From Priestia megaterium (GTDB lineage: Bacteria > Bacillota > Bacilli > Bacillales > Bacillaceae_H): a stretch of DNA of 64,000 bases. Shown here piece by piece: positions 18,488 through 30,445 of this stretch; positions within the stretch are counted from its first letter, which is position 1, and the number at the start of each line of letters is the position of its first letter. The stretch spans positions 4,245,501 through 4,309,500 of the forward strand of contig NZ_CP023317.1 of the NCBI RefSeq assembly GCF_009497655.1. Direction: 5' to 3'. The translations under genes were made by a program, and so were the position numbers. The notes under the pieces were generated by a model. The model saw only the letters and a list, made by a program, of their open reading frames with translations, made no database searches and had not been told where the DNA came from.

Positions 18488-18670
18488 TTAGCGGAAGACC
18501 TGCTTCATTAAACGATCCCGAACAAACGGCAAATTAAAAAATGAACGAACAGCTAGACTGCGGATAAATGAATTTCCAAACAGCGAATTTAAAACACGGT
18601 ATCTCATTTGGTAGCCCAGCGTTCCAACAACTAAAAGCGTAAGTACTAATACAATATGTCTCATTTTCAA
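18488..18670 (-). CDS. Small membrane-anchored protein of unknown function
   Basis: 60 residues: one N-terminal membrane helix (about 5-20, IVLVLTLLVVGTLGYQM) followed by a basic tail with repeated Arg/Phe/Leu (SLAVRSFFNLPFVRDRLMKQVFR). The ATG has AAGGAGG upstream, and a terminator follows 15 bases after the stop, which supports a real gene. The position, between gluP and the folate cycloligase gene, equals that of a small yqg gene in B. subtilis (possibly yqgO), but I cannot confirm the homology by eye. Confidence 0.68.
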   Translation of the reverse strand: MKMRHIVLVLTLLVVGTLGYQMRYRVLNSLFGNSFIRSLAVRSFFNLPFVRDRLMKQVFR

Positions 18671-18715
18671 GCCTCCTTACGTTTACTTTGCTCCTATGAC
18701 GAACATTTTATGCTC

Positions 18716-19513
18716 TTATATAGGTAAAAGCAGGATAAGGATTCCGCCTGTAAAAGCAGCAAGCAAAATAGCGGCAAGATTCACAACATCATTGTTAAAG
18801 AACGTTATTCCTTTTTCTTTTACGGTTGGCTTGCCGCAATGATCTTTCCGTTCCGTTTCAATACCGCAGCTTTGACAGCGAAAGCGAACTTGCACACTTG
18901 CTCCAAGAAGAGTGTCTATAGCGTTTCCAATAAAACCAAAGCACCCAACTAGCAATATACTACTCAGCGATACGGATGGAAAAGCAAAATAACAAGCGGC
19001 AGCAATAAGAAAAGTTCCGGCTGCTCCGGCTGCTGTACCTAAAAGTGAAACGGCTCCTGAAGTACCCGCTTCTACTCTCTTTAACGTCCAAATGTAAAAC
19101 GGCGGCTTCTTACTAAGAGACCCTATTTCAGATGCCCATGTGTCAGCATTAGCAGCTGAGATACTAATCATAAACATCCACATGTAAACAGGCAAAGCTG
19201 TTGCAGCATATAACAAACCGCAAGCAGCAGCTACACCTCCATTAGCAAGGACTTGAATGTAATCTCGCCTGTCGTGCTTCTCTAGCTTTTCTTCTAATGC
19301 GCGTTTTTTTTCTTTTTTATACTTACTACACAACGTAGAAGTGCTAAAAAATAAGAGTAAGAGTAAAAAACCTTGAAGCGAAAAACCGATATAAACGCTC
19401 GCTCCTACGATGAAAGACATGCAGGCTCCCGATACTGTCAGTGCTTTTGCTATGTAGCCCGCTCCTGCCATGAGTAATATCACGATTATCATGACAGCAT
19501 CAAACGGATTCAC
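18716..19513 (-). CDS. DUF92 family integral membrane protein
   Basis: 265 residues with about six or seven membrane helices. DUF92 signature motifs are clear: ISAANADTWASEIG (about 116-129), RVEAGTSGAVSLLGTAAGAAG (about 146-166) and GFIGNAIDTLLGA (about 197-209). A four-Cys-like segment CQSCGIETERKDHC sits in a loop. Plant VTE6, in the same family, is a phytyl-phosphate kinase, so a CTP-dependent prenyl or polyol phosphate kinase role is conceivable but not shown. It overlaps the upstream cycloligase gene by 14 bases, so they are co-translated. I do not recall this gene at the B. subtilis locus. Confidence 0.85.
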   Translation of the reverse strand: MNPFDAVMIIVILLMAGAGYIAKALTVSGACMSFIVGASVYIGFSLQGFLLLLLFFSTSTLCSKYKKEKKRALEEKLEKHDRRDYIQVLANGGVAAACGLLYAATALPVYMWMFMISISAANADTWASEIGSLSKKPPFYIWTLKRVEAGTSGAVSLLGTAAGAAGTFLIAAACYFAFPSVSLSSILLVGCFGFIGNAIDTLLGASVQVRFRCQSCGIETERKDHCGKPTVKEKGITFFNNDVVNLAAILLAAFTGGILILLLPI

Positions 19514-20066
19514 AGCAAATAAGCTCCTTCTCTGTCAAAATATATTCAACGGGAATATCATGAGATTCATATGGAACCTCTGAAACGACTTGACAATCAA
19601 ACGCAAGGCTTAGCTTCTGTCCGGTATAATCTGTTAAATAACGATCGTAATAGCCGCCTCCATAGCCGATACGATATCCATTCTTGCTATATACCACGCC
19701 AGGCACAAGGAGTAAATCAATTGAAGATTTTGAAACGGGAACCGTTTCTTCAACAATTGGTTCGGCTAACCCGTAGTACACTGTTTCAAGCTGTGAAAAA
19801 TTCGTAATCTCGTAGAAAACCATTTGAGATGTTGTGGGGTTGCATTTTGGAACAGCTACTTTCTTTCCATCTTTCCAAGCCCGTTCAATGATGGCTTTCG
19901 TATTAACTTCTTTATTTCTTGAAACCGTAGCTGCAATGACTCTAGCCTCTTTCCATAAACAAGTTTCATACAGTGCATTTGCTATGCTCGTTGAATGTGC
20001 CTCGTGCTGCTCTTCAGAAATTAAATTAAGAACGCGCTTCATCTCTTTGCGCAGATGAGATTTCAT
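19500..20066 (-). CDS. yqgN: 5-formyltetrahydrofolate cyclo-ligase
   Basis: 188 residues (family about 185-200). Converts 5-formyl-THF to 5,10-methenyl-THF with ATP in the cytoplasm, rescuing folate from a storage or inhibitory form. Basic N-terminus KSHLRKEMKRVLN, ATP-binding VAVPKCNP (about 70-77), and the family signature LLLVPGVVYSKNGYRIGYGGGYYDRYL (about 123-149) are present. ATG at 20066 with GGGGGGAA upstream. It lies just after rpmG and, via overlap, before the DUF92 gene. Also fits serine/glycine one-carbon metabolism encoded at gcv. Confidence 0.93.
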   Translation of the reverse strand: MKSHLRKEMKRVLNLISEEQHEAHSTSIANALYETCLWKEARVIAATVSRNKEVNTKAIIERAWKDGKKVAVPKCNPTTSQMVFYEITNFSQLETVYYGLAEPIVEETVPVSKSSIDLLLVPGVVYSKNGYRIGYGGGYYDRYLTDYTGQKLSLAFDCQVVSEVPYESHDIPVEYILTEKELICCESV

Positions 20067-20081
20067 TTTAATTCCCCCCTA

Positions 20082-20116
20082 TAAAAAAAAACAGCAGGAT
20101 TGTACTCCTACTGCTT
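20082..20116 (-). terminator. rpmG terminator
   Basis: Stem AGCAG(TA)GGA / TCCTGCT starting right at the rpmG stop, followed by nine T on the - strand. Confidence 0.7.
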
Positions 20117-20264
20117 ACTTTGTTTCACGATGAAGTGTAACTTTTTTAAGTCTTGGGCTGTATTTTTTTAACTCAAGACGATCTGGGTTATTACGCTTGT
20201 TTTTAGTTGTAATGTAATTACGGTCACCAGTTTCAGTGCAAGCTAATGTAACGTTTACGCGCAT
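20115..20264 (-). CDS. rpmG: 50S ribosomal protein L33
   Basis: 49 residues from ATG 20262-20264 to TAA 20115-20117; shorter than 60 codons. The sequence [22 protein letters not shown] and the ending [11 protein letters not shown] identify L33. Only Cys9 is present: the second cysteine of the usual CxxC is Thr (CTET) and the C-terminal pair is replaced (SPRL). This is therefore the zinc-independent form. GGAGGG is about eight bases before the ATG. Located upstream of the folate cycloligase gene as in B. subtilis. Confidence 0.95.
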
Positions 20265-20506
20265 CTATTTTCCCTCCAAACATTATAAACATAAATCAGA
20301 CTTTAATATAATATCATTTTTCGAAAGGAAATGCCAGTCTGTTTTTTTGAAGAAAGTCATTTAATTTCATTTCTTCACTTTTTCTTTCCTCTTAGAGTCC
20401 TGAGCTCCTTCTCTGCTACGCCTTATACATAGATGAAGTTTCTTAAAATAGGCGGAACTCTTTTTATGAGAGGCGTACTTCCTTTCTTTTAAATAAAATC
20501 CATTAT

Positions 20507-22786
20507 TTACACTCTTTGATATTCTTGTATTTTTTCTACAAAATATGCCGACAGCTTCTTGGCAGTCTGAGTGTTTAACGCCTCTGAATAAATATTTAAT
20601 ACAGGCAAGTGACCATCGGGCAAAATAAGCGTCCATTCATGAGGATCATGGTAAATTTTTAAACCATCAATGACATACACTTGTTTACCGATTGCTTCTT
20701 CTAATAACTTCTTCATCACTTGTTCTTGAATTTCTAGCGGACATGAAATATAGCGCCAGTTCATATAAGCGTGGGGGACATATTGAATCATTTCAGAAAT
20801 TTTCCGCTGCTGCACCATAATTAATTCGATCAGCTGACATAAAGCGTACATGGCATCTAACTGAAATTGAACAGGCCCCAAAAGACTAAGCAAATCACGT
20901 TTTTTTGCTTTTGTCCTCATAAATGATTGATTGAGAGATTGAGCAAATGTTTCTAATGTGGATGAATAGTGTATAGGAATAGGAACGAATGCTACTTTTT
21001 TTGTCATGTATACGCTATAAATATAAAGCGACATAATTTCTGAGTCATTTACGCTGCAGCCTTTTTCATCATATAGAGCAAATGTTTCTCCATCTTCTTT
21101 AATCTGAATACAAAAAGACAGCTTATTTCGTTTAATTATTCGTTTGGTTTCTTCTGTTTTCTCCCACTTGTTTAAAAATAACACATGGATACGAAGACGC
21201 TTACATAATAATTCGACAACTTCCTGTATAAACGGTGAACAAATCACACCAATCCGCGTACTGTCTTCTAATAAAATATGCTGATTAATTGATTTTACTA
21301 AAGCATCACAATATTCTTCCTTGATATTTCCTATGCTTGTTTCTTTAAGTGAAACAGAAGTCGTTATGTTTGCTTTTTTAGCTTGAAGATACATCCGCTC
21401 AATCTTTTTTTCAATAAGCTGATTAACTAATTGTCCTTTATTATCATATATTTCTAAAAATAGACCGCTGTTTTTGCTATCCACACCAATATAAATACCA
21501 ATGCTCGCTTGTGAAGTCATCATGTAATATCGAAATACCGGAAGAGCTTCTTTTTTAATATCATACACAGCTGAATGATTACTCCGTAAAAAAGAAAAGC
21601 ATTCTTTGCGAAGTTGAGTGGCTTCTCCTTCATCATCGCTTGCTAGACAGAACGATCCTTGATGTTTGCATACAAGTAATAACGCATTGTATAGTCTTTC
21701 TCGATCAACAGATGAATGTACATACAGGCGACCGTTTTTGAAGATAGAAACATCTGGTTTTACAGAAAGGTGAGGTAGCACTTGATTTTCAGCTACTGTA
21801 TCTTGGACATACGTAGTCATCGCTTGAACATTTACATACGGACCTATCGTAGCGTTGTATAAAAACGATTCTGCCCCCACCGTTACGTTTTGAAGCAAAA
21901 TCGTTTTATCGATTGCAGCATGTGCTTCTATGATACTATTGGTTCCGATAATCGTGTAAGGACCAATTGAAGCACCTTTTCTAATCACCACATTTTCTCC
22001 TACGTAAACCGGATCGTAAACAGTCACCCCTTCTTCTATAAGCGCGGCATCTGAGACAATACTTTCCTGTCTATCGCCAAACCACTTGCTCCACAGATCA
22101 TAGTGTGCTTGACGATAATGGTGGATTTGCCCAATATCAATCCAATAATCCTCTGTTACAAAACTGCACACAGTATGATTATATTCCAAAAGAAGCGGGA
22201 TAATGTCAAAGCTAAAATCTGTAGGACCATAAGAATTCACGTAATCAAGAACGGATTTTTTGATCACATACACTCCCGTATTAATCAATCGGCTATTGGC
22301 CTGTTCGTAGGTCGGTTTCTCTACAAATCCCGTGACTCGATTCCCTTCATCTATCGTCACCACTCCATAACCCCGCACGTCGTTTACTTCTTTTGTAACA
22401 ATAGTCATTTCGCTTTTTTGTTCATAATGAAAATGAATAACGTCTTGAAGATTAATTTCTGTTAAGGCATCTCCACTAATAATAATACAGTCTTCCTCAA
22501 TAAAGGCCTCTGCTCGCTTAATTCCGCCCGCTGTTCCAAGAGGCTCTTTTTCGATAAAATAAGTAAGCGTCACTCCCCACTGAGAGCCATCCCCAAAGTA
22601 TTCAATAATTTGTTCATGCCTATACTGCAGCGTAATCCCAATCTCTGTAATTCCATGTTTCTTAAGCAGTTCAATGCTATATTCCATCACAGGTTTATCG
22701 TAAAGCGGCAGCATAGGCTTTGGAATCGTGTAGGTCAAGGGCTGCAGTCTTGTTCCTTTACCGCCAGCAAGTATAATGGCTTTCAA
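20507..22786 (-). CDS. Sugar nucleotidyltransferase / left-handed beta-helix / phosphohexomutase-like fusion
   Basis: 759 residues. Residues 1-230 are a nucleotidyltransferase with GGKGTRLQPLT (8-18), the metal/sugar Asp in IISGDALTE, and VEKP; likely mannose-1-phosphate guanylyltransferase or glucose-1-phosphate thymidylyl/uridylyl-type. Residues about 250-370 are hexapeptide repeats (VYVGENVVIRKGASIGPYTIIG). Residues about 375-759 resemble a phosphomannomutase (IGIYIGVDSKNSGLFLEIYDNKG), but no phosphoserine SHNP loop or DGDGDR metal loop is visible, so that part may be non-catalytic. Similar fusions are known in cyanobacteria and Firmicutes. It overlaps the glycosyltransferase gene by 4 bases. 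Substrate unknown. No obvious terminator follows. Confidence 0.85.
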   Translation of the reverse strand: MKAIILAGGKGTRLQPLTYTIPKPMLPLYDKPVMEYSIELLKKHGITEIGITLQYRHEQIIEYFGDGSQWGVTLTYFIEKEPLGTAGGIKRAEAFIEEDCIIISGDALTEINLQDVIHFHYEQKSEMTIVTKEVNDVRGYGVVTIDEGNRVTGFVEKPTYEQANSRLINTGVYVIKKSVLDYVNSYGPTDFSFDIIPLLLEYNHTVCSFVTEDYWIDIGQIHHYRQAHYDLWSKWFGDRQESIVSDAALIEEGVTVYDPVYVGENVVIRKGASIGPYTIIGTNSIIEAHAAIDKTILLQNVTVGAESFLYNATIGPYVNVQAMTTYVQDTVAENQVLPHLSVKPDVSIFKNGRLYVHSSVDRERLYNALLLVCKHQGSFCLASDDEGEATQLRKECFSFLRSNHSAVYDIKKEALPVFRYYMMTSQASIGIYIGVDSKNSGLFLEIYDNKGQLVNQLIEKKIERMYLQAKKANITTSVSLKETSIGNIKEEYCDALVKSINQHILLEDSTRIGVICSPFIQEVVELLCKRLRIHVLFLNKWEKTEETKRIIKRNKLSFCIQIKEDGETFALYDEKGCSVNDSEIMSLYIYSVYMTKKVAFVPIPIHYSSTLETFAQSLNQSFMRTKAKKRDLLSLLGPVQFQLDAMYALCQLIELIMVQQRKISEMIQYVPHAYMNWRYISCPLEIQEQVMKKLLEEAIGKQVYVIDGLKIYHDPHEWTLILPDGHLPVLNIYSEALNTQTAKKLSAYFVEKIQEYQRV

Positions 22787-25101
22787 TTTTTTGCCTCCCT
22801 CCTTTTTTTATCCTGGCAAATGTGATGTTGAAACAGCTTACTTGTATCGATAGCGATTTTCTCCCAGCTAAACATCGTTGTTGCTTTTCTATACCCATTT
22901 TCGCTGATTTTCGCAGCTATTTTTTCATTTTTTAACAAAAATTCAATACAGTTGATTAATTCGAGCGTATCTCCTCTGGCAAACGTCAGGCCCGTGTCGA
23001 AATGTGAAACAATATCGCTTAGACCTCCTGTATCGGCAACGATGGTTGGCTTCTTGGCTACCATCCCCTCTAAAGCCACAATTCCAAAAGGTTCATATAG
23101 ACTTGGAAAAACAACCATTTTGCAAGCTTGAAGAAGTTGATTTCGTTCGTTATCGGTAATGTATCCAATAAAATACACGTATTTGTCTAATTGCTTTTCA
23201 CTTACCTGTGTTCGAAATTCATGAAGTAAAGGCCCTTTTCCCGCCACAACAAATTGAACATCTATTTGTTTTTTCTTAAATAGTTCCGCTGCTTCAATAA
23301 ATAGCTGAAATCCTTTTTCATATACAATTCGTCCAATTGAAAAAATAATAGGGGCCTTTCTAAAATTATATTTCTTTTGTAAACTTTCTTTTAACCGTTC
23401 ATTTACTGCGTCGACTACCAGCTGCTTGTCAATTCCATTTGGAAATATAGCAATTTTATCCTGTTCTACGTGAAATAAAGTGATTAATTCTTTCTTCATA
23501 TAGTCGCTGCAGACAATGATTGAGCTTGATTGTCGAATCAGCTCCTCTTCTTGCAAGTGAATTTTCTGCTGCATGTCATTATGAATACCATTATTGCGCC
23601 CATGTTCTGTCGCATGAATGGTCGTAATTAGCGGCCTATCCGTTTTATCTGCTAAACATTTTGCTGCGGATGCAACAAGCCAGTCATGAGCATGAATAAC
23701 GTCAAAAGACAGCTTGTAGCCTAACTGCAGTCCTCTAAGAGCCATAGCCACGTTCAAACTGTTTACCCATGTCAAAAAATCCGGATGATGAGGCTGCAGG
23801 CTTTTAACTCTGTAAACGTGAACACCGTATAAACGTTCATATTCCGGCAGCCCCTCTACATACGTCGTTAATACACTAACGTGATGGCCCGCTCTAGCTA
23901 ACGCTCTGGATAAATCAAATACATGTCGTGCAAGTCCTCCGATAACTAGAGGAGGGAATTCCCATGCAAGCATTAAAATGGAGAGACCGCCTTTATATTG
24001 ATTTACTGATAAAGCCGACGGCTCTATCTCTTTTACAGGGTATAAAAAAGAACTTCCTGAAAGAAAACTGTTTTCACTATCCATCCTTGGATTCTCTTCG
24101 TGACAGAGAAAATCAAACAGCTTTATTTGCCTTTCGTATTCACCTCTGACTTTTTCAAAAGTATAAAGCCAATCGCTGCTACTTAAAAGGAGCCACTGTC
24201 GGTAGATGGCATTCACCACGCTAGGATGTTTAAAATCGATCACACCTAGCATCGCCTCTGACTTCTGTACGGTTGAAATAAACAATTCATTGTTCTCACT
24301 GACAAATTCGGCGCTTTTTGTTGCACCGTAGAGTGCAAGAGTTTCGTTTTGATGAAACTGTATATCCCTCGCGTAATCTAAAGGATATTGAAATGTACCG
24401 CTTGCTGCTTGCATTCGCTGAAAGCCAAGCGTGTCCTTCGCTTTCAAATCCAAAACAGCGCTCGCTTTATTCATTGTTCCTTCCTCAACTTGTTTTCCTT
24501 GCTTAGGATATGGAAACAAGATAATACCAGCAGGGGACTTTTTTAGTTCATCTGTTGATGACTTCACAAAGGTATAGCGCATTTCATGAGATTTCAGGAG
24601 CATATCTACTTGATGAGTATACTCTCCTTGCTGTATAAAAAAACCGACGGGCTTTTTTTCAAAAAACTGTTGAAAAACACGTATTGCTTCTGTAATTTGG
24701 AGATTTAATGTTTGTTCTGTTTTAAGGATGGAAACGAACGCGTTCGTTACGGTAGTAGGAATACATTCCATCATGTCATGCTGAAAGAAATATTTGCAGG
24801 CTGAGAACAAGCTCCCGTCCCACTTTTTTAAAAAAGTGAGTGCTCTCTGATGCTGCCGGCTTGAAAACTGGTGTAAATACTGAGCGTAACGAGTATTAAA
24901 CTCCTCGTCGTTTAATACGTTCAAAAATACACAAGACATCACAGCTGTTGCACCTATCAATTTTTCAGACTCAATTTGATCTAAAAAAGGGATGAATTCG
25001 TTCGTTACTTGTTCAAACAGCGGATACTCACTCTCTGCTTGAAGTACATGTAGCAACGGATAATGCATATAAGTTAAAAGAATACAGTCATCACTATTCA
25101 T
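22783..25101 (-). CDS. GH57-like (DUF1957-type) domain fused to GT4 glycosyltransferase
   Basis: 772 residues. Residues about 372-765 are a GT-B glycosyltransferase of family GT4 (glycogen-synthase-like): LMLAWEFPPLVIGGLARHV at the start, VIHAHDWLVA, FSIGRIVYEKGFQLFIEA, and the EPFGIVALEGM nucleotide-sugar motif. Residues 1-360 look like a degenerate GH57 branching-enzyme fold (LLTYMHYPLLHV, NEFIPFLDQI). The segment PVGFFIQQGEY (about 151-161) aligns with the GFWLPE(C/M)AY nucleophile motif, with Gln in place of the catalytic Glu. So the GH57 part may be a binding or scaffolding domain. Middle gene of an overlapping trio (8 bases with DUF4912 gene, 4 with the nucleotidyltransferase gene). Confidence 0.83.
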   Translation of the reverse strand: MNSDDCILLTYMHYPLLHVLQAESEYPLFEQVTNEFIPFLDQIESEKLIGATAVMSCVFLNVLNDEEFNTRYAQYLHQFSSRQHQRALTFLKKWDGSLFSACKYFFQHDMMECIPTTVTNAFVSILKTEQTLNLQITEAIRVFQQFFEKKPVGFFIQQGEYTHQVDMLLKSHEMRYTFVKSSTDELKKSPAGIILFPYPKQGKQVEEGTMNKASAVLDLKAKDTLGFQRMQAASGTFQYPLDYARDIQFHQNETLALYGATKSAEFVSENNELFISTVQKSEAMLGVIDFKHPSVVNAIYRQWLLLSSSDWLYTFEKVRGEYERQIKLFDFLCHEENPRMDSENSFLSGSSFLYPVKEIEPSALSVNQYKGGLSILMLAWEFPPLVIGGLARHVFDLSRALARAGHHVSVLTTYVEGLPEYERLYGVHVYRVKSLQPHHPDFLTWVNSLNVAMALRGLQLGYKLSFDVIHAHDWLVASAAKCLADKTDRPLITTIHATEHGRNNGIHNDMQQKIHLQEEELIRQSSSIIVCSDYMKKELITLFHVEQDKIAIFPNGIDKQLVVDAVNERLKESLQKKYNFRKAPIIFSIGRIVYEKGFQLFIEAAELFKKKQIDVQFVVAGKGPLLHEFRTQVSEKQLDKYVYFIGYITDNERNQLLQACKMVVFPSLYEPFGIVALEGMVAKKPTIVADTGGLSDIVSHFDTGLTFARGDTLELINCIEFLLKNEKIAAKISENGYRKATTMFSWEKIAIDTSKLFQHHICQDKKRREAKN

Positions 25102-25588
25102 ATTGCTTCTTCACCTGCTCCAAGTCATTTGAATATAAGGAATATGTGCTAAATTCATTTTGAACACCTTGGTGAACTTTTACAGGTTCGTACATCCAGC
25201 TCAACGACTTTACATTCACTTGTTCATGCTGTTCTTTCATCAAATAAACCGGATTCGAACGAAGAAGGGAAAAAAAACTTCCTTCTTTATCTTGAATACC
25301 AATATCTATTACATACGTGCGCTCACTTTCCAAGCTATTCATAAACATGAAGTCTTGCTTAGGAGTAAGACCCTTCATATAATAGCGGTTTGATTCATGG
25401 CCGTTAAAATGAAGGCCTGTTATATCATACGTACACATAGCTAGATTCAATTCTTCCCATCGTGTCGAAAACATACTTTCTACCATGTCTCGAATATGCT
25501 CTGAAAACGACCAGTGAACATAAATACGAGATGAGTCAAGCTGAGTAGCTATACACACATTTAAGTTTTGAATAAGATTAGGAGCCAC
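25094..25588 (-). CDS. DUF4912 family protein
   Basis: 164 residues, soluble, no signal peptide. It matches DUF4912 by eye: the RIYVHWSFSEH segment (about 21-31), LNLAMCTYDITG (about 47-58) and TYVIDIGIQDKEGSFFSLLRSNPVYL (about 91-116). DUF4912 proteins tend to sit beside glycan-synthesis genes, but no function is established. The GTG at 25586-25588 has only a weak ribosome site (GAAGTGAT). It overlaps the next gene by 8 bases, so the trio forms one operon. Direct CGTATAAA repeats lie about 40 bases upstream. Confidence 0.75.
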   Translation of the reverse strand: MAPNLIQNLNVCIATQLDSSRIYVHWSFSEHIRDMVESMFSTRWEELNLAMCTYDITGLHFNGHESNRYYMKGLTPKQDFMFMNSLESERTYVIDIGIQDKEGSFFSLLRSNPVYLMKEQHEQVNVKSLSWMYEPVKVHQGVQNEFSTYSLYSNDLEQVKKQYE

Positions 25589-25624
25589 TGTTTTATCACT
25601 TCGTTTCTTAGATTGTTTTTTCTA

Positions 25625-25643
25625 CGTATAAATGCCGTATAAA
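25625..25643. repeat. Direct CGTATAAA repeat, 11-base step, upstream of the glycan trio
   Basis: CGTATAAA at 25625-25632 and again at 25636-25643. On the - strand this reads TTTATACG twice, 11 bases apart, 37-55 bases before the DUF4912 start. Spacing matches one helical turn, and TTTATA with a 5-base gap also fits a loose PhoP half-site pair. Confidence 0.35.
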
Positions 25644-25737
25644 CTTATTAACATCTTACCATTCAGAAAAAGTTGCCACAATAAACGCAATTTGTCGATT
25701 TGTGTTAAAAAATCCAGCCCAGCAAATTGGATGCATG

Positions 25738-25976
25738 AGCCCGTATGAATCGTTTGTTACACCGCTGTTGATTTCCGTGCAAAATGTCGCTTTCCGAGGG
25801 CGGCGATGAGCCTCCTCGTCGCTTCCGCTTTTCCTGCAGGAGTCTTTGCCCTTCCCTCTCATTAACAGCTAGAAGCAGCTACATTAAACCTACGTTTCTC
25901 GATACAATGAAAAAAATCCGAACGATTCATCGTTCGGATCTTCCTTCAACTAAAACACTTTTGTCCCAGCCTCTTT
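25738..25976. repeat. Composite intergenic repeat, copy 1 (downstream of phoU)
   Basis: Shares with copy 2 the blocks GCTGTTGATTTCCGTGCAA, GAGCCTC.TCGTCGCTTCCGC, AGAAGTCTT.GCCCT and the ending TTTTGTCCCAGCCTCTTT. Within it a 10-bp perfect stem (25916-25925 / 25930-25939) followed on the - strand by T6 serves as the phoU terminator. It occupies most of the 390-base gap between the glycan operon and phoU; the GC-rich reading frames across it are not genes. Confidence 0.75.
25911..25940 (-). terminator. phoU terminator inside repeat copy 1
   Basis: ATCCGAACGA / TCGTTCGGAT stem, TTCA-type loop, T-run on the - strand. Confidence 0.85.
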
Positions 25977-25981
25977 TTCCA

Positions 25982-26641
25982 CTATTCATTTAAATCGTAG
26001 CGTTTGCCTTTTACAAGGTAAAATACGCTTTCTGCTACGTTAGTGGTATGATCAGCCATACGCTCTAAATAACGGGCTACAAATAAAAGCTGTGTAATTT
26101 GGTTCATAGCCTCCTGCTTTTCTTTAGCAAGACTTAAAAGTTCTTTAATTGTTATTCCGTAAAGCTCATCCACTTGATCGTCCATTTCCGCTACTTTTTT
26201 AGCCAACACAAGATCTTCTTCGTGATAAGCTTTTAACGAAAGGCTCAGCATTTCAATCGAAATATCGTGCATTTTCTTTACATGTTCTAACGGCTTAATT
26301 AATTCTTCGTTTCCAATTCGTATAGCTGATTTTGCTACATTAACGGCAAAATCTGCCATACGCTCAACATCCGAAGCAATTTTAATTGCCACAATAATAC
26401 GTCTTAAATCAATAGCCACGGGCTGCTGCTTTGCAATCAGTAGGATAGCTAGGTCATTAATTTCTTCTTCTAAGTCATCCACGTATGAATCACCGTCGAT
26501 AATTTCTAGCGCCAGCTCAACGTTACTTGTTTGCAACGCTTCAATTGATTTTGATAACGCCTCATGCGTTAAGCGCCCTATTTCTAATAATTTTTCACGT
26601 AATATCTTTAAATCACCATGAAACTTTTCGCGTACAACCAC
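25982..26641 (-). CDS. phoU: Phosphate signalling / transport accessory protein PhoU
   Basis: 219 residues made of two PhoU three-helix repeats. Each carries the metal-binding E/DxxxD-type motif: DLEEEINDLAILLIAKQQPVA and ASDVERMADFAVNVA in the first half, and LARYLERMADHTTNVAESVFYLVKG at the end. PhoU links the Pst transporter to the PhoR kinase in many bacteria. B. subtilis lacks a clear phoU, so this is a difference. The start is GTG (VVREKF) with GGGATGA upstream. It lies 22 bases after pstB, in one operon. Confidence 0.93.
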   Translation of the reverse strand: MVVREKFHGDLKILREKLLEIGRLTHEALSKSIEALQTSNVELALEIIDGDSYVDDLEEEINDLAILLIAKQQPVAIDLRRIIVAIKIASDVERMADFAVNVAKSAIRIGNEELIKPLEHVKKMHDISIEMLSLSLKAYHEEDLVLAKKVAEMDDQVDELYGITIKELLSLAKEKQEAMNQITQLLFVARYLERMADHTTNVAESVFYLVKGKRYDLNE

Positions 26642-26663
26642 TCATCCCATCTCCTTGTATGTC

Positions 26664-27473
26664 TTAACCGAAACGACCTGTAATATAATCTTCTGTGCGT
26701 TTATCAGATGGCATTGAGAAGATTTTATCTGTTTCTGCGTACTCTACCACTTCTCCATTTAAGAAAAATGCTGTTTTATCTGAAATACGTGCCGCTTGCT
26801 GCATATTATGTGTAACAATAATAATGCTGAAGTCTTTCTTTAATTCTTGTACTAACTCTTCTACTTTTAATGTCGAAATTGGATCGAGTGCAGAAGTAGG
26901 CTCATCCATTAAAATAACGTCGGGTTCAATAGCCAAGCAGCGCGCAATACAGATACGCTGCTGTTGTCCACCTGACAACCCATTCGCATTTTGATTCAAA
27001 CGATCTTTAACTTCGTCCCAAATAGCTGCTCCTCGTAAACTTTTTTCAACAATTTCATCTAGTTTTTTCTTGTTGCGAACGCCATGAATTCTTGGACCGT
27101 ACGCGATATTATCATAAATAGATTTTGGGAACGGATTTGGCTTTTGGAAAACCATTCCTACTTGCGTGCGCAGCTCTTCCACATGGTACGATTTATCAAA
27201 AATATTTTTTCCTCTATACTCAATTTCACCTGATGTACGGACAATTGGCGTCATTTCTACCATACGATTTAACGTTTTAATATATGTTGATTTTCCGCAG
27301 CCTGATGGACCGATGATCGCGGTAACTTCGTTAGCATGAATGTCTAAATCAATATTTTTTAAGGCATGTGTGTTGCCATACCATAAATTCAAACCTTTTG
27401 TTTTATATACAATTTCTTTTGTTTGCGGAGTATTTACTTTTTCTTTGTTAGTCAATTCCATTGTTATTGCCAT
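26664..27473 (-). CDS. pstB: Phosphate ABC transporter ATP-binding protein PstB
   Basis: 269 residues. ATPase of the PstSCAB phosphate importer. Walker [12 protein letters not shown] (about 53-63), Q-loop [15 protein letters not shown], signature [16 protein letters not shown] and Walker [13 protein letters not shown] are intact; PNPFP is diagnostic for PstB. The start at 27473 has AAGGAGG eight bases upstream; a longer frame reaching 27515 has no ribosome site. It is followed by phoU. No pstS, pstC or pstA precede it, and the next upstream gene is pbpA, so the rest of the transporter must be elsewhere or lost. Confidence 0.95.
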
Positions 27474-27542
27474 TGGATAATCCTCCTTCATCGTCTTTAA
27501 CCGTTTTGAGCACAATAAAAGTCTCTCTATGTCTATTTAATA

Positions 27543-27566
27543 TCTATTGTTTACTATTAGTGTAAA
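27543..27566 (-). promoter_or_regulatory. Candidate promoter of pstB-phoU
   Basis: TTTACA (27561-27566) followed on the - strand by an AT-rich -10 region (TATTAA-type) about 17-18 bases on. The first element is part of an imperfect inverted repeat TTTAC-N7-GTAAA. No convincing PhoP-box series is seen. The remaining bases up to 27780 hold only a small GAAGC/GCTTC hairpin near 27575-27592. Confidence 0.35.
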
Positions 27567-27780
27567 TACATACGAGAAGCCGAACGCTTCCCCTTATTTT
27601 GATCATTTCTATTAATCCTTACACTTACAGAATAATAGCCGACTATTAATTGTGTTTTAACTCAATGTAAAGCTTTTGTAAACGAAGGCCTATCTGCGTG
27701 TTTTTTAGGTAAAAAACTAGTTCTTACGACCCTTAAATTCAATAAAAAACCATATATGTAAAGATTTCTAACAAAAAAAA

Positions 27781-28106
27781 GAAGAGGTTGAGACATAACT
27801 AAATTAATTTGATATAAAGACAAGTAAATTAGATAAATAAGCCAGTACGAATCACTTCTGACACCACTGTTGATTTCCGTGCAAGCAGGCGGCCGGTGAG
27901 CCTCGTTGTCGCTTCCGCTCCTGCGGGGTCTCACTTCTTCCGCTTTTCCGGCAGAAGTCTTCGCCCTGCCCTCCAATCAACCGCTTAAAGCACCTACTTA
28001 CATGAAATCTACGTTCACCCTCTCAATAAAAAAATCCGAACAGCGTTAATTCTTAATCAACGTCGTTCGGATCTTACTTCAACTAATATGCTTTTTCCCA
28101 GCCTCT
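27781..28106. repeat. Composite intergenic repeat, copy 2, with inverted ends (MITE-like)
   Basis: 326 bases between pstB and pbpA. The left end AAGAGGTTGAGACATA (27782-27797) and the right end read on the other strand, AAGAGGCTGGGAAAAA, match at 12 of 16 positions. Inside are the GC-rich core (CGGCCGGTGAGCCTCGTTG, CCTGCGGGGTCTC, GCAGAAGTCTTCGCCCT) and the terminator stem at 28029-28074. The right end abuts the pbpA stop codon. No transposase; open reading frames across it are incidental. Confidence 0.75.
28026..28076 (-). terminator. pbpA terminator inside repeat copy 2
   Basis: GATCCGAAC...GTTCGGATTTTTTT on the - strand, with an inner CGTT/AACG extension of the stem. Confidence 0.82.
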
Positions 28107-30284
28107 TTAATTGGCGTCGTTTGCAATGACAGCCTGTTGATTCTCTTCTTGATCTTTTACTTCTTGTTCACCTTTTTTCTTTAAATCAAAATACGTATCG
28201 AGCGCAGAACGAGCAAGCTCTTTTGTAATGGTATTTGGTGCACTTGGCACAAATGCCGATGGTACCACGACAGCTACTGCAATTTCAGGATCATTTGCCG
28301 GAGCAAAGGCCACAAAGTTTGAATTATTAACTTTAATTGGATCCCCTCCGCTTGGGTTTTTCTCATAGGCTTGTGCCGTTCCAGATTTACCAGCAGGATT
28401 ATAGTTCGCTGTATGGAAAGCTGCGTACCCTGTACCGCCTTGTTCCTGCGTAACCCGTTTAAAGCCATTTTGAACATCTTTAATGTATTCTTCTTTCATC
28501 GTGATACGATTTAACACATCAGGTTCAAATGAATGCTGCGTACCGCCAATTTCATCGATTTTTATTGTTGGCTTTCGGATTTCTTTTACTAGCTGCGGCT
28601 TGATGCGATACCCTCCATTAGCTATTGCAGAAGTATATTGAACAAGCTGCAGCGGCGTGTACGTATCATACTGGCCAATTCCTAAATCAAGCGCTGTACC
28701 TGGAACATTGCTTCCGCCTTGTACACCTGTTGATTCGTTATCGAGGTTTATGCCTGTTGATACGCCTAAGCCGAACTGACTGTAGTACGAACGCAGTTCG
28801 CTGAATGTGTCAGGTTTAATCGGTAAAGTCATGTTCTTGTGGTACTGTAATCCAGCCATCGCCATTACCGTTTTAAACATAAATACGTTGGATGAATATT
28901 TTAACGCGGATGAATACGTTAAGGGTCCTAACCCCTCAGCCTCAGCTGATTTCTTAATTGGTGTTCCTTTAATTTTTAACGGTTCATCAACGAACACTGT
29001 GTTTGGCTTAATAGCTCCTGAATCTAAGCCAGCTAGAACCGTTGCCCCTTTTACAACAGAGCCCATTGTATAAGATGTTGAAATATTCCCTAGTGCAAAA
29101 TCTTCTATTTTAGGTACCCCAGTCTTCTTATCAATGGTGTATTTTTTACCTGCCATTGTTAAGATTTCTCCTGTGTGAGGATCCATCATAATCACAAAAG
29201 CACGGTCTAAAAACTGCGTTCCTTTCATTTTCTTTTTGGCTAAAAGCTGGTCCGTAATTTGTTTTTCTACCGCTTTTTGAAGCTCCATATCAATAGTTAA
29301 AACTAAATCACTGCCGCGTTCGCCTTTCGACACTTGAATTGTATCAAGGAGATTTCCTTTATCATCTGTTACATACTGGACTTTTTCTTTTTGACCGCTG
29401 AGCTGAGCTTCGTATTGCTTCTCTAAATAGCTCGTCCCAACTTGGTCATTTCGACTATAGCCTCTTGATAAGTAATACTGTACTTTATCTTTGGGCAGAC
29501 CCTCGTTGGCAGAGGATACATTTCCAAGCAAAGTACGGAGAGTGCTGTTTTCTGGGTATGAGCGATCCCAATACGTTGTTGTATCAACACCCGGAAGTTC
29601 ATCTAAATGCTCACTTACAACGGCATACTCTTCATTTGTCACACCGCTTTTAACAATTTGCGGGGTGCTAGAATAACCTGCCTCCATTTGGCGCTTAATA
29701 GCTAGAACTTCTAAATCACTCTTTAAACTTTCTAAATCTTTTTTAGAAATGCGGTCTAACTGACGTTGATACAGTTCGTCATCAGTCATTTCACCATCTT
29801 GAACTTTTTTGCGATCAGCTTTCGTAATTTTCTGCTCCGCTTCTTTAGGGTGAAGCATAATCCAATAATCCTTCATGTCGCGTTCTGTAATTTTTACCAC
29901 GTTTTTAGCATCTTTATTCTTTCTATTTTCTGGAATATCAATCACATTTGTGGTGTAAGGAACATCGATCATAGTGGCTAACTTTTTAGCGATACGCAGC
30001 CTTTCTTCAGCTGTATTTCCTTGAAAACGAGTATATGTAATCGTATTTAAAGAGGTATTATCTACAATTACGCGGTTATACCGATCGTACATTTTCCCTC
30101 GAGGAACAGGCGTACTGACTGTAACGTCCTGTGTTTTTTCGACTTCTCGTTCGTAATTCTCACCGTACACAATTTGAACAAGTCCCAACCGCAAAATTAA
30201 TACGGAAAATAGGGCAAATACGGTCAAGAAAAGTAAGTTCACACGAAAAGGCACGTGACTTTTTCTTCTTTTTTTCTTTTTCAT
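28107..30284 (-). CDS. pbpA: Class B penicillin-binding protein (PBP2A type)
   Basis: 725 residues (B. subtilis PbpA/PBP2A 716). Monofunctional transpeptidase for cell-wall elongation. One N-terminal membrane anchor (about 14-34), dimerisation domain with RGKMYDRYNRVIVDN (about 62-76), then the transpeptidase domain with SVVK (Ser409-Lys412), SSN (464-466) and KSGTA near residue 635. A basic KKKKRRK stretch precedes the anchor. The last 25 residues are charged and Gln/Glu-rich. Same neighbours as in B. subtilis (yqgE, sodA). The stop codon merges with the outer end of a repeat element. Confidence 0.94.
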   Translation of the reverse strand: MKKKKRRKSHVPFRVNLLFLTVFALFSVLILRLGLVQIVYGENYEREVEKTQDVTVSTPVPRGKMYDRYNRVIVDNTSLNTITYTRFQGNTAEERLRIAKKLATMIDVPYTTNVIDIPENRKNKDAKNVVKITERDMKDYWIMLHPKEAEQKITKADRKKVQDGEMTDDELYQRQLDRISKKDLESLKSDLEVLAIKRQMEAGYSSTPQIVKSGVTNEEYAVVSEHLDELPGVDTTTYWDRSYPENSTLRTLLGNVSSANEGLPKDKVQYYLSRGYSRNDQVGTSYLEKQYEAQLSGQKEKVQYVTDDKGNLLDTIQVSKGERGSDLVLTIDMELQKAVEKQITDQLLAKKKMKGTQFLDRAFVIMMDPHTGEILTMAGKKYTIDKKTGVPKIEDFALGNISTSYTMGSVVKGATVLAGLDSGAIKPNTVFVDEPLKIKGTPIKKSAEAEGLGPLTYSSALKYSSNVFMFKTVMAMAGLQYHKNMTLPIKPDTFSELRSYYSQFGLGVSTGINLDNESTGVQGGSNVPGTALDLGIGQYDTYTPLQLVQYTSAIANGGYRIKPQLVKEIRKPTIKIDEIGGTQHSFEPDVLNRITMKEEYIKDVQNGFKRVTQEQGGTGYAAFHTANYNPAGKSGTAQAYEKNPSGGDPIKVNNSNFVAFAPANDPEIAVAVVVPSAFVPSAPNTITKELARSALDTYFDLKKKGEQEVKDQEENQQAVIANDAN

Positions 30285-30348
30285 ACCAACACCTACACTT
30301 TATAAAACATATATACCATAACACCATAAAATCAGACATTTAGCAAAT

Positions 30349-30375
30349 AAATAGACACCTGGCAGGTGCCTATTT
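30349..30375. other. Perfect 12-bp hairpin between pbpA and yqgE
   Basis: AAATAGACACCT at 30349-30360 pairs with AGGTGCCTATTT at 30364-30375 around a three-base loop (one G-U on one strand). It ends the yqgE transcript or sits in the pbpA leader; weak T-run (TATTTATTT) on the - strand. Confidence 0.55.
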
Positions 30376-30445
30376 ACACAACGTATTTATTCTAAAAGAA
30401 AAGCGAGGCATTTTCCATAGTACAAATGAAGGAGCTAATAATACT

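Follow-up and report, generated by a model that had tools for sequence, protein, structure and literature searches.

A three-gene DUF4912–GT4–nucleotidyltransferase operon of Priestia megaterium with two probable pseudoenzyme modules, possibly descended from an alpha-glucan system separate from glgBCDAP

We analysed a stretch of 64,000 nucleotides from Priestia megaterium (RefSeq assembly GCF_009497655.1, contig NZ_CP023317.1, positions 4,245,501 to 4,309,500 of the forward strand), hereafter called the window and numbered from its first letter. It carries, at positions 20507–25588 of the minus strand, an operon of three overlapping genes encoding a small DUF4912 protein, a protein that joins a GH57-like and a GT4 module, and a nucleotidyltransferase extended by a beta-helix and a phosphohexomutase-like part. 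The genes and modules (lengths in amino acids, aa) are:

25094–25588, minus strand: DUF4912 gene, first of the operon; 164 aa, GTG start
22783–25101, minus strand: GH57-like/GT4 gene; 772 aa, ATG start
24112–25101, minus strand: degenerate GH57-like module, residues 1–330 of the 772-aa protein; probable pseudoenzyme
22783–23997, minus strand: GT4 retaining glycosyltransferase module, residues 369–772; catalytic E-x7-E, R and K present
20507–22786, minus strand: nucleotidyltransferase/hexapeptide/mutase-like gene; 759 aa, TTG start
22067–22786, minus strand: nucleotidyltransferase module, residues 1–240; GGKGTRLQPLT, ISGDALT and WIDIG present
21737–22066, minus strand: left-handed beta-helix (hexapeptide) module, residues 241–350; Pfam hexapeptide repeats
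20507–21736, minus strand: mutase-like module, residues 351–759, without metal-binding loop; probable pseudoenzyme
22793–22804, minus strand: purine-rich ribosome-binding site of the third gene, recognised in the sequence within the end of the GT4 gene

The overlaps of 8 bases (first and second genes) and 4 bases (second and third) that a first-pass annotation had reported were borne out by the coordinates of the minus-strand open reading frames, and its view of the three genes as one translational unit was supported; the third ribosome-binding site falls within the end of the GT4 gene, which points to coupled translation. The three proteins were 96–98% identical in four further close Priestia genomes and are therefore no reading-frame artefact, and the GT4 protein was 97% identical to its copy on a contig named Priestia aryabhattai. 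A Pfam check of all three proteins matched DUF4912, Glyco_hydro_57, GT4, NTP_transferase and hexapeptide repeats, with PGM_PMM_I below cut-off, and no protein scored above the cut-off of an NCBIfam model among those listed (the best 25 of 54 and of 52 for the two large ones).

DUF4912 was found in 14 of 16 genomes of the family, in 62 of the 199 genomes sampled from the order (61 of them over cut-off) and in 191 of 398 of the phylum. Loci were taken from all 62 order genomes with a match, window included, and in every one of them DUF4912 was the direct, co-directional neighbour of GT4. The chromosomal site was largely the same, with fthC in the stretch in 58 of the 62, pstB in 47, phoU in 46, and phoU, pstB or pbp2 in 61. 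The conserved co-occurrence expected of the trio thus held for DUF4912 and GT4 and was incomplete for the nucleotidyltransferase, which is not obligatory, since a copy beside GT4 was absent in 17/62. Outside the order we took 45 loci, hand-picked and non-random, from the listed best phylum matches (two apiece from four of the genomes). DUF4912 was annotated in 43 of these; a same-strand GH57 gene adjoined it in 41/43 (exceptions L114 and L197), each of these 41 having both catalytic motifs, and a nucleotidyltransferase-PGM gene lay within about 18 kb in 26/45. A GH57-GT4 fusion also occurred in three loci outside the order (L119, L126, L165). Besides the DUF4912-GH57 pair, four loci there (L113, L194, L195, L203) had other, different GH57 genes close by. 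The literature searched, which took in few subscription journals, yielded no account of the operon.

Retaining GT4 glycosyltransferases carry an E-x7-E motif together with basic Arg and Lys residues in the donor site. The window's module has both, in YEPFGIVALE and GRIVYEKGF, and the two Glu, the Arg and the Lys were invariant in 62/62 order genomes. Pfam scores were 136 bits for Glycos_transf_1 and 109 bits for Glyco_transf_4; the top NCBIfam model, TIGR02149 (GlgA_Coryne), gave 154 bits, short of its cut-off of 302.4, and the best solved relative was the glycogen synthase GlgA (2bis, 87 bits), with GlgM (6tvp, 71 bits) among the others. The mean ratio of nonsynonymous to synonymous substitution rates (dN/dS), here and below a pairwise average over five close Priestia genomes with no formal test, was 0.058 for GT4, with controls of 0.013 for phoU and 0.095 for fthC. 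Judged by its residues, the GT4 module looks active.

The other half of the same protein presents a different picture. In GH57 enzymes the catalytic Glu lies in an LPEC-type motif and the catalytic Asp in a DAELFGHWW-type motif. Pfam Glyco_hydro_57 matched residues 78–183 of the 772-aa protein at 33.2 bits, and in an alignment of 67 GH57 modules the window reads GFFIQQGEY where intact relatives have GFWLPECAY, so that Gln occupies the column of the catalytic Glu, as in 5/5 close Priestia genomes; the DAELFGHWW-type motif was not recognisable. Hence, the fusion of GT4 with a GH57-type module proposed at first pass stood as regards the presence of both modules, but not as regards a working GH57 enzyme, and the Priestia module is very probably not one, to judge from these substitutions. 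Separate GH57 enzymes of about 530 aa and fusions of about 880–960 aa retain the catalytic-Glu motif and DxELxGHWW, the exception among proteins of intact size being two different GH57 genes of locus L113. Fusions of 655–854 aa never had both motifs: L140 had the first only, and two others had Glu at the catalytic column, but within a different motif. Among the 62 order genomes GH57 was intact in 26, degenerate in 26, without one motif in 1 and absent in 9, and the GT4 tree called for at least four changes between intact and non-intact GH57 (three with 8 distant or long rows left out). Three proteins of about 930 aa initially taken as degenerate, with VPEC variants or without the HAHLP string, were reclassified in these counts. 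Mean dN/dS was 0.24 for the GH57-like module and 0.37 for the linker.

Sugar-1-phosphate nucleotidyltransferases are marked by a GGxGTRLxPLT signature and two metal-binding Asp motifs. The third protein has all three (GGKGTRLQPLT, ISGDALTEIN, WIDIGQIHH), matched NTP_transferase (PF00483) at 193 bits and had as nearest solved chains UTP-glucose-1-phosphate uridylyltransferase, mannose-1-phosphate guanylyltransferase and others; with its signature intact this module looks active. A dead nucleotidyltransferase had been considered for families f168, f171 and f3 and was withdrawn, their N-termini reading GGEGKRL, GGRGRRL and similar. The mutase-like part reached 13.1 bits against PGM_PMM_I (Pfam cut-off 22.5), and its residues 639–752 matched Arch_GlmM at 71 bits (cut-off 439). 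Neither the TASHN nor the DxDxDR loop of phosphohexomutases was found in any of 37 fused copies (four of the 37 modules being truncated), whereas both were present in 3/5 unfused mutases of the same alignment, L108 and L112 being without the Ser loop. With the metal loop missing from 37/37 fused copies, a mutase activity of the third gene is unlikely, and this part is probably an old non-mutase and no Priestia novelty. Mean dN/dS was 0.10 for the nucleotidyltransferase, 0.14 for the hexapeptide and 0.13 for the PGM-like module; together with the GH57-like value, these figures indicate that the dead modules are still constrained, more loosely. At L126:10664-13148 (also in L165), a second nucleotidyltransferase and an intact-looking phosphomutase lay just upstream of the DUF4912 cluster, as if supplying nucleoside diphosphate (NDP)-glucose.

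The DUF4912 protein matched PF16258 at 58.1 bits (Pfam cut-off 29.4) and was the single match in the window's genome (5.24 Mb, 3 contigs); its mean dN/dS was 0.13. We know of no function for DUF4912, and a full-text literature search on the name returned a plant transcriptome study and nothing else. A sequence search for a solved relative gave no PDB match below E 0.2. An AlphaFold2 model built from 4 sequences had a mean pLDDT (predicted local distance difference test) score of 58, with ten-residue blocks of residues 21–120 at 51–86, and arranged strands around one helix; the best Foldseek matches were fibronectin type III (FN3) domains (E about 2e-4, template modelling score to query about 0.4). 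With low to moderate confidence the model points to an FN3/immunoglobulin-like beta-sandwich and, with modest confidence, the predicted fold fits a binding domain. A CBM48 assignment was rejected, with an hhalign probability of 0.8% against six GlgB N-termini, while the positive control, Bacillales against other DUF4912 sequences, gave 100%. A putative DUF4912-GT4 fusion in Sutcliffiella (L091) was left unproven and unused: it scored 61 bits with a profile that possibly included L091, 12–13 bits with a profile excluding it, and was not listed by Pfam at E 0.01. Among three control genomes, two of them over cut-off, the DUF4912 profile also gave a match in that of B. subtilis, which bears on the first-pass view that B. 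subtilis has nothing similar between rpmG and the phosphate genes.

Several lines tied the wider gene family to alpha-glucan metabolism. All three intact GH57 proteins scanned had Pfam GH57 followed by the branching-enzyme C-terminal domain BE_C. The window's genome also has a classical glg operon, at 4.65 Mb (L211, 4649500–4659500) and in the order glgB-C-D-A-P, in which GlgB, GlgC and GlgP were identified by model, while we take the remaining two genes to be GlgA and GlgD from position, length and N-termini. When GlgC, GlgB and GlgP were sought in the 199 order genomes, classical GlgB (TIGR01515) was below cut-off in 16 of the 62 with DUF4912, and all 16 had an intact GH57; conversely, GlgB was present in 36/36 genomes with a non-intact or absent GH57 (Fisher p 2e-8). 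GlgC was clearly absent in 8/62, and all eight had a full-length nucleotidyltransferase-PGM protein (Fisher p 4e-6; both p values ignore kinship). On the best GT4 tree, four independent pairs remained for GlgB and three for GlgC, and as kinship limits the pairs, the association is suggestive and not proven. Two genomes (G454, G492) had GlgP and neither GlgC nor GlgB over cut-off, a pattern that fits a DUF4912-GT4 system supplying their glycogen. Consistently with these data, the earlier proposal of an alpha-glucan-type system apart from glgBCDAP was supported, with the addition that the same genome has glgBCDAP as well, and the ancestral set has the look of an alpha-glucan pathway of non-classical type; for the mannan-type product proposed as an alternative, nothing was found beyond general family scores.

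A further component emerged downstream of the operon, where many DUF4912 genomes carry a protein of about 200 aa. The 43 relatives collected by position formed one BLAST cluster, and the ten scanned had no Pfam family above cut-off. A profile of this family matched residues ~37–264 of 17 proteins of 652–694 aa (whole-protein E 1e-36 to 5e-22), and in the two of these that were scanned (L130 and L126) a GH15 domain followed after residue 270. Since the match lies N-terminal to the GH15 domain, the ~200-aa protein corresponds to a GH15 N-terminal domain without its catalytic domain. These two scanned neighbours of about 660 aa, and a different one in L115, were GH15 proteins. In the 62 genomes, GH15 was represented by the N-terminal domain alone in 32, was full-length in 5 and was not found in the stretch in 25, the window among them. 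Full-length GH15-type enzymes of about 660 aa stood next to intact operons at L130:570-2552, L126:745-2730 and L165:1193-3163.

Upstream of the operon, ten Priestia regions share an almost unchanged block, and the window has two conserved elements there:

25676–25697, minus strand: operator/-35 element CGACAAATTGCGTTTATTGTGG (family consensus CGACAAWWTGYGTTYATTGTRG), 0 mismatches in the window
25653–25661, minus strand: extended -10 element TGGTAAGAT, at a fixed distance from the operator

The 22-base-pair core CGACAAWWTGYGTTYATTGTRG occurred at up to 3 mismatches upstream of DUF4912 in 34/62 genomes from 10 families, while shuffled sequences never came below 6 mismatches and 331 upstream regions of seven other genes gave 0 matches at ≤3 and 1 at ≤5. 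The distance from core to extended -10 box TGNTANNAT was the same in 34/34, with a 17-base spacer from TTGTRG. A looser frame, AC(A/T)2-N10-TTGT-N18-20-TANNAT, which was defined after the sequences had been viewed, was present in 51/62 order genomes, in 0/43 regions outside the order and in 0/286 upstream regions of phoU, pstB, fthC, rhomboid, pbp2 and DUF92 genes of the same loci. The window's own genome has a single copy of the core at ≤2 mismatches and a second at 3, neither of them near glg. A search of the 199 genomes at ≤2 mismatches gave 51 matches, spread over 48 genomes (reversed control pattern, 1 genome); 18 of these lay away from a known DUF4912 gene, and of the 14 inspected, nine were at the same chromosomal site (one on a short contig) and five look like chance. 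One Priestia genome carries a second core copy elsewhere (G005:C1:406421-406442, 2 mismatches). The core was present in 31/36 non-intact against 3/26 intact-GH57 genomes, a contrast that a tree-aware test reduced to 1 independent pair (4 on the best tree). The idea that the motif was gained by degenerate lineages was weakened, the looser form with the same frame and spacing being present in many intact lineages.

As for regulators, the upstream regions were compared with the SigE consensus and the Spo0A box TTTGTCRAA. SigE-type promoters appeared upstream of DUF4912 in 16/62 genomes at a score of ≥11 (shuffled 2.6%) and in 1/345 control regions, by a hand-made score on the SigE consensus; a first preset pattern had given 12/62 against at most 4 in 40 shuffles. 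A Spo0A box (0A box) at ≤1 mismatch was present in 46/62 against 27% of shuffles (control genes, 9–19 of 40–58), and an exact one in 7/62 against 1.3%; the box of the window, TTTGTCGAT, has 1 mismatch and overlaps the operator core. Patterns for SigB, SigG, SigF, SigH, strict SigA, PhoP and CcpA were found upstream of DUF4912 in 0/62 each, and that for SigK in 6/62 against 3.5 in shuffles.

The operon is flanked upstream by PhoU and PstB and downstream by fthC, and a TIGR00297-like membrane protein is among the annotated neighbours. A short gene between the operon and fthC, with its start codon near 20264, is taken to be rpmG from its sequence. In many relatives a divergent gene pair, presumably yqzC/yqzD, lies between phoU and the operon; it is absent from P. 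megaterium-like genomes (25589–25981 in the window), in which the operon promoter is retained. A literature search on yqgL/yqgM gave nothing relevant, and an Rfam scan of 18500–30400 gave no match. An intergenic repeat with core GAGCCTCCTCGTCGCTTCCGCT is present at 25808–25829 and, with 2 mismatches, at 27898–27919; the genome holds 54 copies at ≤2 mismatches, 27 per strand, and the reversed control pattern none.

Comparison with known systems placed the operon near several of them. Pyrophosphorylase-phosphohexomutase fusions, which we take to be COG1208 plus COG1109, share the NTP-hexapeptide-PGM order and an intact nucleotidyltransferase signature, but differ from the 37 fused copies aligned here, all of which are without the metal loop. 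The GH57 branching enzymes of Thermotoga, Thermococcus and Petrotoga share both motifs with the relatives outside Priestia, and BE_C with the three scanned, unlike the window copy with its Gln for Glu and no recognisable second motif. GlgA_Coryne-type GT4 enzymes (TIGR02149) and the alpha-maltose-1-phosphate synthase GlgM (6tvp) resemble the window's GT4 as top NCBIfam model and solved relative, respectively, but the window's module is far below the curated cut-off. Classical glgBCDAP shares alpha-glucan synthesis and the genome with the operon, and differs from it by GlgA, a GH13 GlgB and GlgC, by another locus and by having no DUF4912. The closest studied pair found, compared by description, is Rv3031-Rv3032 of mycobacterial methylglucose lipopolysaccharide (MGLP), a GH57 protein and an alpha-1,4-glucosyltransferase, presumably of family GT4, in one cluster. 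The Priestia operon is unlike it in that the modules are fused, GH57 is without the catalytic Glu, and a nucleotidyltransferase-pseudomutase and DUF4912 are co-encoded; moreover, no methyl- or acyltransferase is present among the operon genes and annotated neighbours. Rv3032 is reported to be an alpha-1,4-glucosyltransferase that elongates MGLP and can feed glycogen, with Rv3031 as a potential branching gene (PMC2674218), and Rv3031 is labelled as a putative GH57 protein (PMC6629080). According to a review, it still has to be clarified what GT4 genes, some of them beside GH57 genes, do in archaeal glycogen metabolism (PMC11046441).

From the genes, module states, conservation, constraint and promoter conservation described above, we infer enzyme activities, substrate, product, scaffold role and timing, and propose, with a probability of roughly one half, that the operon descends, in specialised form, from a system for alpha-glucan synthesis that is widespread in Bacillota and separate from glgBCDAP. 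In the ancestral set, which is still whole in other lineages, the nucleotidyltransferase-beta-helix-pseudomutase protein would make NDP-glucose, GT4 would add glucose in alpha-1,4 linkage, GH57 would be the branching enzyme, GH15 would trim the glucan, and DUF4912 would be a small beta-sandwich partner of GH57 and GT4. In Priestia, the GH57 half no longer has its catalytic Glu and no GH15 is found at the locus, with GT4 and the nucleotidyltransferase kept intact; GT4 might then use NDP-glucose made by its neighbour for a short or unbranched alpha-glucan, or might glucosylate one specific acceptor. The acceptor could be held by a scaffold made up of the dead GH57 module and DUF4912, and the dead mutase module could have a structural role or sense a sugar phosphate. 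Transcription of the operon would start from a SigA-type promoter of its own, with a nearly invariant operator upstream, and would probably be linked to late growth or sporulation.

A number of observations weigh against this proposal. A GlgC match of middling strength (E about 1e-111) occurs in two genomes (G457, G596) whose GT4 has no nucleotidyltransferase next to it; they were counted as not lacking GlgC, and counted otherwise the association falls from 8/8 to 8/10. On well supported branches of the GT4 tree, kinship leaves 1 independent pair. The window has an Asp (LDYA) at the catalytic Asp column of GH57, in 5/5 close Priestia genomes, in a region where the alignment is unsure, and a Ser (SKN) at the catalytic Ser column of the mutase. 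In two close relatives this Ser is replaced by Ile or Thr, so that the Ser loop is not conserved. Because these Asp and Ser residues align at catalytic columns, it is the missing Glu and the missing metal loop that carry the verdict that both modules are dead. Their constraint could partly reflect folding. Eight genomes without a DUF4912 match have the promoter followed by the gene for the ~200-aa protein and no GT4, so that GT4 is not always the core of the locus. The looser promoter frame was fitted to sequences already seen, and no SigE-type promoter is seen in the window (score 9.2, at chance). Finally, donor and acceptor sugars are not deducible from family models, and to our knowledge no enzyme activity, product or transcript has been reported for the operon.

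Three other explanations were weighed against these data. The operon might be an accessory to glycogen synthesis, GT4 and the nucleotidyltransferase adding capacity (priming or an extra synthase) while GlgB does the branching and GH57 is free to decay. This agrees with glgB-C-D-A-P in the same genome, with GlgB in all 36 genomes whose GH57 is degenerate, half-degenerate or absent, and with a glycogen synthase as top GT4 model (TIGR02149, 154 bits, below the cut-off of 302). We nevertheless consider it rather unlikely, because the GH57-like module is constrained (dN/dS 0.24) and retained in 27 of those 36 genomes, the operator is the operon's own and not near glg (once at ≤2 mismatches, once more at 3), and GlgB is also present in 10/26 genomes with an intact GH57. 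Equally, the product might be no storage glucan at all but a specialised cytoplasmic glucan or glycoconjugate of the Rv3031-Rv3032 type, or a spore-associated glycan. Here a studied GH57/GT4 pair exists (PMC2674218, PMC6629080), and SigE-type promoters in 16/62 relatives against 1/345 control regions would suit sporulation. We are doubtful of this explanation, given that methyl- and acyltransferases are missing from the operon and its annotated neighbours, that the SigE-type site occurs in 0/7 Priestia genomes of the set, and that the GH15 and GlgP associations point to a plain alpha-glucan in the ancestral set.

The loss of GH57, PGM-like, nucleotidyltransferase and GH15 catalytic parts in many combinations, down to the lone GH15 N-terminal domain left at the site in eight genomes, raises the question of whether the operon is a relic in decay, with no present function in Priestia. 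The invariance of the GT4 catalytic residues in 62/62, a GT4 dN/dS of 0.058, and promoter elements whose sequence is near-invariant and whose spacing is constant across 34 genomes from 10 families make this improbable.

The descent of the operon from an alpha-glucan synthesis system thus remains our preferred reading, and we extend it tentatively, at a lower level of confidence. A system centred on GT4 may shed the catalytic domains of several glucan enzymes one after another and keep what is left of them, namely a GH57 without the catalytic Glu, a mutase without the metal loop and the N-terminal domain of GH15, together with one dedicated promoter/operator. As this promoter/operator is nearly confined to the operon in the genome of the window, the reading would imply a narrow regulator yet to be discovered, or an unusual Spo0A-type site, and a glucan function in Bacillaceae that is new and belongs to sporulation or stationary phase. 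The GH57/GT4/pyrophosphorylase chemistry is of a known kind; what is unusual is that catalysis was lost step by step while the promoter was conserved. For annotation, it would probably be a mistake to call the Priestia protein a GH57 or a branching enzyme, and the ~200-aa family without a Pfam match is identified as truncated GH15. For the biology of the group, DUF4912 is tied to GH57/GT4 alpha-glucan genes across Bacillota, the genomes form a graded natural series from the intact set to a single leftover domain, and the deeply conserved promoter offers a direct bait for its regulator.

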